Below are positions 11,667-63,054 of a DNA stretch of 64,000 nt, piece by piece. Source of the DNA: Thermodesulfobacteriota bacterium (GTDB taxonomy: Bacteria; Desulfobacterota; UBA8473); assembly GCA_040757775.1 (NCBI GenBank), contig JBFLWQ010000016.1, forward strand, positions 1-64,000. Reading direction: 5' to 3'. The notes beneath the pieces were generated by a model, which had not been told where the DNA came from, ran no database searches, and saw only the letters and a list, made by a program, of their open reading frames with translations. How positions within the stretch are numbered: position 1 is the stretch's first letter; every line of letters starts with the position of its first letter. The position numbers were made by a program, and so were the translations under genes.

Positions 11667-11756
11667 AAGGGGGAAAAGGGGGACGATCTTAAATAATAAA
11701 AATATCTACACTGCTCAATAAAGTTATTTACGAATTTAAGGTCGTCCCCCTTTCTG
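11667..11756. repeat. REPIN-like inverted repeat related to the ends of the 46.6-kb transposase element
   Basis: GGGGGACGATCTTAAA (11678-11693) is the reverse complement, with one T/C change (G-U in RNA), of TTTAAGGTCGTCCCCC (11735-11750), around a 41-nt loop. The core GGGACGACCTTAAA is the same as the terminal repeats of the Y1-transposase element at 46600-47694. Purine-rich repeats AAAGGGGG flank it, as they do there. It is best explained as a non-autonomous derivative. Confidence 0.7.
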
Positions 11757-11764
11757 GTGAAAAA

Positions 11765-46424: not shown

Positions 46425-46580
46425 ATGTCTCCAGCAATCTTCAGATCAGGGCCGTACAGGTTCTACTTCGTGAGTCACGACCTGCACGAACCACCACATA
46501 TAAATATTGACCAGGACTATTTTTCCTTACCTGGTGGATCATCGCATTTGACGGATCTACAAGGGAACCTAAGAGGATAA
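46425..46580 (+). pseudogene. truncated DUF4160 gene
   Basis: 51 codons with a good ribosome site (GAGGAG, 7 nt before the ATG). The product begins MSPAIFRSGPYRFYF and continues HEPPHINID, the N-terminus of DUF4160 proteins (usually about 80 residues and often beside a DUF2442 gene). After this it departs from the family and stops 19 nt before the left end of the transposase element, so the insertion or its rearrangement probably destroyed it. Confidence 0.65.
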
Positions 46581-46599
46581 AGAGGGTAAAGGGGTAAAG

Positions 46600-46625
46600 G
46601 GGACGACCTTAAAAATTAAAATAAC
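46600..46625. repeat. left terminal inverted repeat
   Basis: Perfect reverse complement of 47669-47694; the GGGACGACCTTAAA core is shared with the repeat at 11678-11750. Confidence 0.85.
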
Positions 46626-46660
46626 TTGACGTGATTTAAGAATGCTGGTATGTTTAGAGT

Positions 46661-47668
46661 ATGCCAAGGATAGCCCGATTAGACACTCCCGGTTTGTTGC
46701 ATCATGTGATTATCAGGGGGATAGAACGAAGAAAGATATTCACGGATGATAAAGACCGCGAGAACTTCATCGACCGGCTGGACGTACTGCTGCCTAAAAC
46801 CAAGACCCAATGCTACGCATGGTCATTTTTATCAAATCACGCCCATTTTCTGATCAGAAGCGGCCCGATGGGAATTGCCGCTTTAATGAGAAGATTGCTT
46901 ACCGGATATGCAGTATCTTATAATAGACGACATAAGCGCCACGGACAACTTTTCCAAAACAGATATAAATCGATTATCTGTGAGGAAGACATCTACTTAC
47001 TTGAACTGGTTCGGTATATACATCTGAATCCTCTGAGAGCAAAGGTTGTGGTTGAATTAGATGAACTGAATAGTTACCCCTATTGCGGGCATAGCGCCTT
47101 AATGGGGAAGCAACAGAGGGGATGGCAAGATGTGGAATATGTGCTTGGGTATTTTGGAAAAAGGGTTGGTGAAGCGAGAAAGAAATATATATCCTATGTT
47201 CAGGAAGGCATTGCCTTGGGCAGGCGACCTGAACTGGTAGGAGGCGGCCTGATCAGAAGTCTAGGTGGTTGGGATGAAATCAAAAAGATGAGACTTGAGG
47301 GTCAGGATCGCATAAAGAGCGATCAACGGATATTGGGTGGGAGTAATTTTGCAAGATATGTACTTTCGGAATCAGAAGGAGAGTTTTCCCGTAAACACAA
47401 ACTAAAACAGTTGGGGTATGATTTTGAAAAGGTTGTCGAGAGGGTCTGTGACTTGTTCCAGATGGAAAAGGAGTTCATAACCCAAAGAGGCAACCAACGA
47501 GATCGGGTCAAAGCGAGGGATTTAGTTTGCTATTGGTCTGTTATTGAATTGGGGATATCAATGGTGGATGTAGCGAGGAGACTAGACATAACACCTGCTG
47601 CCGTGAGTTATTCTGTTCAACGTGGAGAAAGAATGGCGAAGCGAGAAGGTTACCAATTGGATTCATGA
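46661..47668 (+). CDS. REP-associated tyrosine transposase (RAYT/TnpA-REP, Y1_Tnp)
   Basis: 335 residues. N-terminal Y1 domain: MPRIARLDTPGLLHHVIIRG, the metal-binding HUH motif in NHAHFLI, and the catalytic Tyr in LLTGYAVSYNRRH followed by GQLFQNRYKSI and RYIHLNPLRA. The C-terminal part (about 230-330) has a helix-turn-helix, VARRLDITPAAVSYSVQRG, of the DnaA-like type seen in long RAYTs. The gene appears intact. No strong ribosome site precedes the ATG. Confidence 0.92.
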   Translation: MPRIARLDTPGLLHHVIIRGIERRKIFTDDKDRENFIDRLDVLLPKTKTQCYAWSFLSNHAHFLIRSGPMGIAALMRRLLTGYAVSYNRRHKRHGQLFQNRYKSIICEEDIYLLELVRYIHLNPLRAKVVVELDELNSYPYCGHSALMGKQQRGWQDVEYVLGYFGKRVGEARKKYISYVQEGIALGRRPELVGGGLIRSLGGWDEIKKMRLEGQDRIKSDQRILGGSNFARYVLSESEGEFSRKHKLKQLGYDFEKVVERVCDLFQMEKEFITQRGNQRDRVKARDLVCYWSVIELGISMVDVARRLDITPAAVSYSVQRGERMAKREGYQLDS

Positions 47669-47694
47669 GTTATTTTAATTTTTAAGGTCGTCCC
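47669..47694. repeat. right terminal inverted repeat
   Basis: Starts directly after the transposase stop codon and mirrors 46600-46625. Confidence 0.85.
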
Positions 47695-47732
47695 ACCTTT
47701 CCACACCTTTCACACCTTTCATCTGAGATAAA

Positions 47733-62977: not shown

Positions 62978-63054
62978 GGCGGTGTAGCTCAGTTGGTTAG
63001 AGCATGCGGCTCATATCCGCAGTGTCCGGGGTTCAAATCCCTGCACCGCCACCA
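62978..63054 (+). tRNA. tRNA-Met (CAT), elongator type
   Basis: 77 nt with encoded CCA. Acceptor stem GGCGGTG/CACCGCC, D arm AGCTCAGTTGGTTAGAGC, anticodon stem TGCGG/CCGCA with loop CTCATAT (anticodon CAT, 63012-63014), and T loop GTTCAAATC. The perfect first base pair (G1-C72) rules out the initiator. A tRNA-Ile2 with lysidine at C34 is the alternative, but the overall sequence is closer to elongator Met tRNAs. Confidence 0.93.

Follow-up and report, generated by a model that had tools for sequence, protein, structure and literature searches.

TIRtrons, named in 2013, carry a RAYT-like Y1 gene (TIRYT) between long terminal inverted repeats (TIRs); in the accessible parts of that description, the TIRs of some, not all, TIRYTs carry a GGGGWSAS motif and also occur as dispersed, often dimeric repeats, and large REP clusters are reiterated together with flanking DNA (Di Nocera et al., 2013, PMC3733652). 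TnpA_Y1 subclass 2.1 combines a YIHLNP motif, an FQ pair replacing WQ and a DnaA_C-like C-terminal domain with a gene that has no adjoining REP; its link to TIRYTs is said to need confirmation, and the same source, as far as its text is accessible, gives IS200/IS605 elements subterminal hairpins (Quentin et al., 2018, PMC6006769).

We describe here an element at 46600-47694 of the window, the whole 64-kb stretch of DNA analyzed, that belongs to the already published TIRtron/TIRYT kind: as in the accessible description of TIRtrons, a RAYT-like Y1 gene lies between long TIRs, with dispersed hairpin copies. It is likely an autonomous HUH/Y1 (TIRYT, subclass 2.1) element with GGGGACG inverted ends, accompanied by hairpins probably moved in trans. 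The initial annotation held that RAYTs lack long terminal repeats, a statement made outdated by the published TIRtrons. The Y1 HUH catalytic domain is shared with IS200/IS605 elements (IS608, ISDra2), which are not known to have terminal inverted repeats, whereas the window element has TIRs of 27 bp. With the REPtron/RAYT and REPIN systems of E. coli and Pseudomonas it shares the HUH fold (4er8) and hairpins made of two inverted units; however, GTAG-tagged REPs are absent from the flanks of the window element, and long TIRs, GGGACG tips and purine-rich arrays are found instead.

The protein resembles subclass 2.1, as accessibly described, in its YIHLNP motif, FQ pair and DnaA_C-like C-terminus and in the lack of a REP beside its gene, but has 335 aa, against a median of 238 aa for that subclass in the accessible data (PMC6006769). 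When the GGGGWSAS motif is compared with the window tip GGGGACGA, six letters fit and the seventh and eighth differ; GGGGACAC, GGGGACAG or GGGGTCAG, read in further TIRYTs from the genus and from plasmids, fit. The accessible parts of PMC3733652 and PMC6006769 hold no description that we found of the two features detailed below, a 9-nt outer segment and arrays of truncated tips.

Transposase gene and terminal inverted repeats

The locus comprises the following features:

46425-46580 (+): short ORF of about 50-51 codons plus stop, a short way upstream of the element; its DUF4160 match is below threshold
46575-46599 (+): left outer array, GGATAAAG, GGGTAAAG, GGGTAAAG, adjoining the tip
46600-47694 (+): TIRtron-like mobile element, 1,095 bp, measured from GGGACG tip to tip
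46600-46626 (+): left TIR, GGGACGACCTTAAAAATTAAAATAACT, perfect over 27 bp
46626-46654 (+): promoter-like site TTGACG-17-TATGTT, its first base being the last base of the left TIR
46661-47668 (+): Y1/HUH tyrosine transposase gene (TIRYT), 335 aa, assigned from Pfam, motifs and fold
47668-47694 (-): right TIR, perfect inverted copy of the left TIR
47695-47721 (-): right outer array, read on the minus strand, TGAAAGGTG, TGAAAGGTG, TGGAAAGGT, adjoining the tip

The transposase gene, the sole long ORF within the element, was rightly annotated as a single-copy RAYT-like gene: its product matches Pfam Y1_Tnp (5.6e-11), and its own genome holds one copy. The protein carries N59-H60-A61-H62 and Y119-I-H-L-N-P124 motifs (Y119 being the predicted catalytic tyrosine) as well as the FQ pair, which on sequence fit subclass 2.1 as tabled in the accessible part of PMC6006769. 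The NCBIfam model REP_Tyr_transpos (REP-associated tyrosine transposase) scores 55.1 bits, under its cut-off of 80. In an AlphaFold2 model (mean pLDDT 85.7), the fold comes closest to the RAYT-REP hairpin complex 4er8 (E 2.7e-5), followed by the ISDra2 and IS608 transposases, and the C-terminus resembles DnaA domain IV (3pvp, TMt 0.70), with a DnaA-domain-IV-like HTH. The corresponding Bac_DnaA_C profile reaches 19.4 bits in the window protein, under the cut-off of 31.5; among 34 aligned relatives, 32 match it at E <= 0.1 (best 4.5e-8). A profile search of PDB sequences gave no match, nor did comparison with defense and phage libraries. By analogy with the IS200/IS605 and E. coli RAYT enzymes, we infer that the transposase acts on a single strand with G-rich ends.

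The inverted ends had been annotated as perfect over 26 bp and touching the stop codon. They are indeed perfect, over 27 bp, and the right TIR begins at the final base of the TGA stop codon (47666-47668). Inverted 15-mer pairs at most 1.5 kb apart number 13 in the window, against 0, 0, 0, 0 and 1 in five mononucleotide shuffles. The promoter-site scan alone does not exceed shuffle expectation; TTGAC lies within 32/56 left ends of the family vs 1/53 right ends, at a position common to many relatives. The G-rich 8-9-mers annotated outside both ends are confirmed and form tandem repeats, with a period of 8 on the left and 9 on the right. On the left, the element is followed by the short ORF and then a DUF4412 gene, and on the right by a leucine-rich-repeat gene; the DUF4160 region into which it was said to be inserted is a weak assignment, the match of the short ORF being present but, at 17.8 bits, under the cut-off of 23. 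The only Rfam or ARAGORN match in the window is a tRNA-Met (cat) at 62978-63054.

We surveyed 84 loci: 80 kept from a scan of genome contigs with four proteins, nearly all of them delta-proteobacterial or Desulfobacterota, three from a search of the genus, and the window element itself. Flanks sufficed for a TIR test, defined as an inverted repeat score of at least 13 and a start 50-80 bp before the ATG, at 76 of them, and the other 8 were dropped. By this definition 57/76 loci have a TIR, nearly always starting with GGGACG. TIRs are therefore usual in this clade; the link between subclass 2.1 and TIRs left open in the accessible text of PMC6006769 holds for these 57 loci. Among 228 mismatched left/right pairs used as a control, 13 score at least 13 at any position (mean 9.1, maximum 18). 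The 19 loci that fail include the real-looking L109 and L141, which lie beyond the distance limit, and L122, which fails on score and distance. One passing locus, L155, has no readable tip, and the other 56 elements give 105 ends with 48 readable nt. More distant relatives were found in 20 plasmid records and one phage record. TIRs at four plasmid loci resemble GGGGWSAS, with no array clear by eye, and a search among plasmids for the empty sites of two plasmid stretches found none.

Desulfosarcina alkanivorans carries, in one complete genome, two 1,109-bp copies (L158 and L159) that differ by one base and lie in unrelated flanks. The shared part continues past the tips, by 8 nt on the left and 7 nt on the right, which suggests that the real element end is there. 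Together with the composition border described below, this places the true ends probably about 8-9 nt beyond the tips. No target-site duplication is clear by eye at this pair; when the flanks of L158 are joined, some registers are open, and the ORFs on the two sides appear unrelated. A 1.56-kb segment, 99.8% identical between its two copies, is present at L154:2281-3844 and L159:2303-3866, about 75-100 bp left of two different TIRtrons of this species. Its L159 copy contains a 466-aa ORF whose product resembles an IS66-type transposase.

Hairpin copies in the genus

A hairpin carrying both tips of the element, one with 1 mismatch, lies elsewhere in the window:

11671-11679 (+): purine-rich outer segment, left of the hairpin copy
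11680-11748 (+): 69-bp REPIN-like hairpin that shares the element's tips; its own genome has five such copies
11749-11757 (-): outer segment, right of the hairpin copy

The initial annotation had reported this copy as a 16-bp stem at 11678-11750; the copy stands, and the stem has 15 pairs when folded as single-stranded DNA (z = -5.0 on the plus strand). Allowing at most 2 mismatches, GGGACGACCTTAAA occurs 4 times in the window, against a mean of 0.42 and a largest count of 3 in shuffles. A count of such stems in the genome, suggested as a check, revealed four more hairpins of about 68 bp: across five genomes of the genus (G000-G004), hairpins of 68-69 bp with the element's tips number five in the element's own genome (G000; 3.1 Mb, 50 contigs) and six in its congener G002, and none was found in G001, G003 or G004. 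All 11 occupy unrelated sites, and flank matches between G002 and G000 stop at the near neighborhood. Most have tips identical over 14 nt, and five, two in G000 and three in G002, share an identical 68-nt core. A 69-bp hairpin is also present in another genus of the same family (G007), where the 13-nt repeat unit at its end (X) is doubled. A search of the plasmid collection with the 68-nt hairpin gave no match.

These hairpins are short, non-coding and dispersed over several sites, and their ends are those of an autonomous element, as in MITEs or REPINs. They are put together from two such ends and are probably moved in trans by the transposase or a close relative. With the hairpins at many unrelated sites and the near-identical L158/L159 pair of a relative, the annotated picture of an element with probable non-autonomous derivatives is borne out. 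The hairpins share only the outer 14-22 nt or so with the window element; in subterminal sequence they are closer to the TIRs of relatives, for example L090. At one contig end, G002 also carries the first part of a transposase gene that is almost the same (98% over 44 aa), with no left TIR ahead of it.

Empty sites in relatives had been proposed as a further check, and the comparison of flanks within the genus recovered none: no sequence straddling an insertion was found for the flanks searched in the five genomes, a search that covered loci other than the hairpins L053, L055, L059, L060 and L063. The flanks that were searched run into contig ends, fall in regions peculiar to a single genome or align only at a distance. 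Two candidates, L185 and L211, were rejected after alignment.

Two minor observations concern hairpin sequences. A second type of hairpin, 105 bp long and with related tips (GGGACGTCCTTAAG / GGGACGCCCTTAAG), lies at C27:20740-20844 of G000 (L025); no gene with this tip type was found in G000, where the family gene is single. The cores of L059, L061, L062 and L063 contain ATATCCACA, one mismatch off the DnaA-box consensus, and the transposase C-terminus is DnaA-like; this resemblance is likely due to chance.

Outer segment and tandem arrays

At 70 array-free ends, positions -9 to -1 outside the tip are depleted in C and enriched in G/A, and composition returns to background beyond -10. This outer segment of about 9 nt moved with the element in one traced pair (L158/L159), yet it varies among hairpins with the same core: pairwise differences between the outer 9-mers of the five same-core hairpins amount to 38/90 on the left and 26/90 on the right (64/180 together). 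In a second subfamily of four hairpins, the outer 9-mers differ at 6/108 positions and the core at 9/408. One subfamily thus conserves its 9-mers and another does not, and a single rule does not explain both. Sharing of the 9-mer between the two ends of an element is confined to the inner 3 nt (a level reached by 19/5000 permutations) and was not seen between hairpin ends (4886/5000).

Arrays, defined by an additional GGGACG or a direct repeat of 8 nt or more in the first 48 nt outside the tip, occur at 26/105 ends and 19/56 elements, including both ends of the window element, and are absent by this definition from 79/105 ends and 37/56 elements; these counts come from related genomes, and their rows are not independent. 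Among the hairpins, 7/22 ends and 6/11 elements have arrays. Direct repeats of at least 9 nt are found at 15/105 element ends vs 5/391 windows further out (mean 0.9 and maximum 4 in 60 dinucleotide shuffles of the flanks) and at 7/22 ends of the 11 hairpins vs 0/78 outer windows (shuffle mean 1.0, maximum 3). An extra GGGACG accompanies 16/105 ends of full elements vs 0/395 outer windows; when GGGACG or GGGACA is counted, shuffles of the same flanks give a mean of 3.45 and a maximum of 7. At hairpins, extra tips are not significant alone (3/22 vs 2/78, shuffle mean 2.2).

From the outside inward, L053 and L057 read X, GGGGACG, X, GGGGACGACCT plus 1 nt, X and the full end, with a different X in each. 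Longer copies are present in the arrays of L153 and L134. X arrays also flank the distant TIRYTs of the genus L037, L039, L044 and L045 (tips GGGGTC, GGGACAC and GGGGACA), with truncated tips within those of L037 and L044. We compiled 35 tip-to-tip rows and called 20 of them clean (X repeated over 3 nt or more, gap not above 4), leaving out 15. With classes set by hand after the data were seen, 11 of the clean junctions are blunt, 4 overlap by 1-2 nt and 5 contain 1-4 extra nt, and the truncated tip measures 6-8 nt in 13, 11-13 nt in 5, and 23 and 38 nt once each.

Possible origins of the arrays

We tentatively propose that TIRYTs reiteratively copy their own ends in place, which might account for both the arrays and the rewriting of the 9-mer. 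HUH enzymes keep the 5' end bound as a phosphotyrosine, which they can ligate to a free 3' end. After insertion, the enzyme would nick at the outer border, the real element end that we infer about 9 nt outside the tip; a host polymerase would lengthen the exposed 3' end across the 9-nt segment and shortly into the tip, with frequent stops after 6-8 or 11-13 nt; and the enzyme would seal the extended 3' end to the original 5' end. One unit (9-mer plus truncated tip) would be gained per round, and repeated rounds would yield tandem arrays and fast turnover of the 9-mer. Such a cycle would need no microhomology.

The main rival is replication slippage or microhomology-mediated tandem duplication at hairpin-forming, G-rich sequence without the transposase, a possible origin. 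It would suit array units that adjoin inverted repeats, outer segments that are low-complexity and purine-rich, the many units that begin with G-runs resembling the tip, and the repeats that arise even in shuffled flanks. However, full elements, whose arms are 1 kb apart, still have arrays (26/105 ends), and arrays are rare beside 33 further perfect hairpins from those loci: their flanks show direct repeats of at least 9 nt in 2/66 cases and an extra GGGACG in 1/66. Junctions without overlap (11 of the 20 clean ones) or with just 1-2 nt (4) also speak against slippage, as do the preferred lengths of the truncated tips. We think it unlikely that the outer 9-mers are target DNA, with insertion at purine-rich G-run sites and arrays as preferred pre-existing repeats. 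Identical cores with different 9-mers (38/90 and 26/90 pairwise) and a composition bias that stops sharply at -9 would agree with such a preference, but the bias at the two ends is in inverted orientation, directed inward at each; array units include parts of the element tip; 8 and 7 nt outside the tips are common to L158 and L159; and four hairpins retain both 9-mers nearly exactly.

It is very improbable that the locus is an immobile relic, a domesticated gene with old hairpin remnants kept as terminators or RNA elements. The single gene copy and few hairpins would be in keeping with this, as would the 'less productive' nature for which TIRYTs are judged possible candidates in the literature; against it stand 68-nt copies that are identical and occupy unrelated sites in two species, an intact gene with conserved motifs, and the near-identical L158/L159 pair. 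Under reiterative end copying, the arrays would be the footprint of a reaction in natural genomes, pointing to a likely outer border near -9 and to stops favored at 6-8 and 11-13 nt, and cleavage position and end-joining are therefore directly testable on short oligonucleotides. If true, such copying by a TIRYT would add an activity not yet described for HUH enzymes, and the detail of the arrays may show how a poorly understood enzyme works.

Other repeats lie at two of the hairpin loci of G002. A ~55-bp stretch at L061:2150-2205 (C107) has matches at dozens of places in all five genomes of the genus. A different hairpin repeat, of the GTCATTCCGGC...GCCGGAGTGACGG type, occupies L057:1725-1905 (C25), recurs in the genus and folds at -61.6 kcal/mol as RNA.
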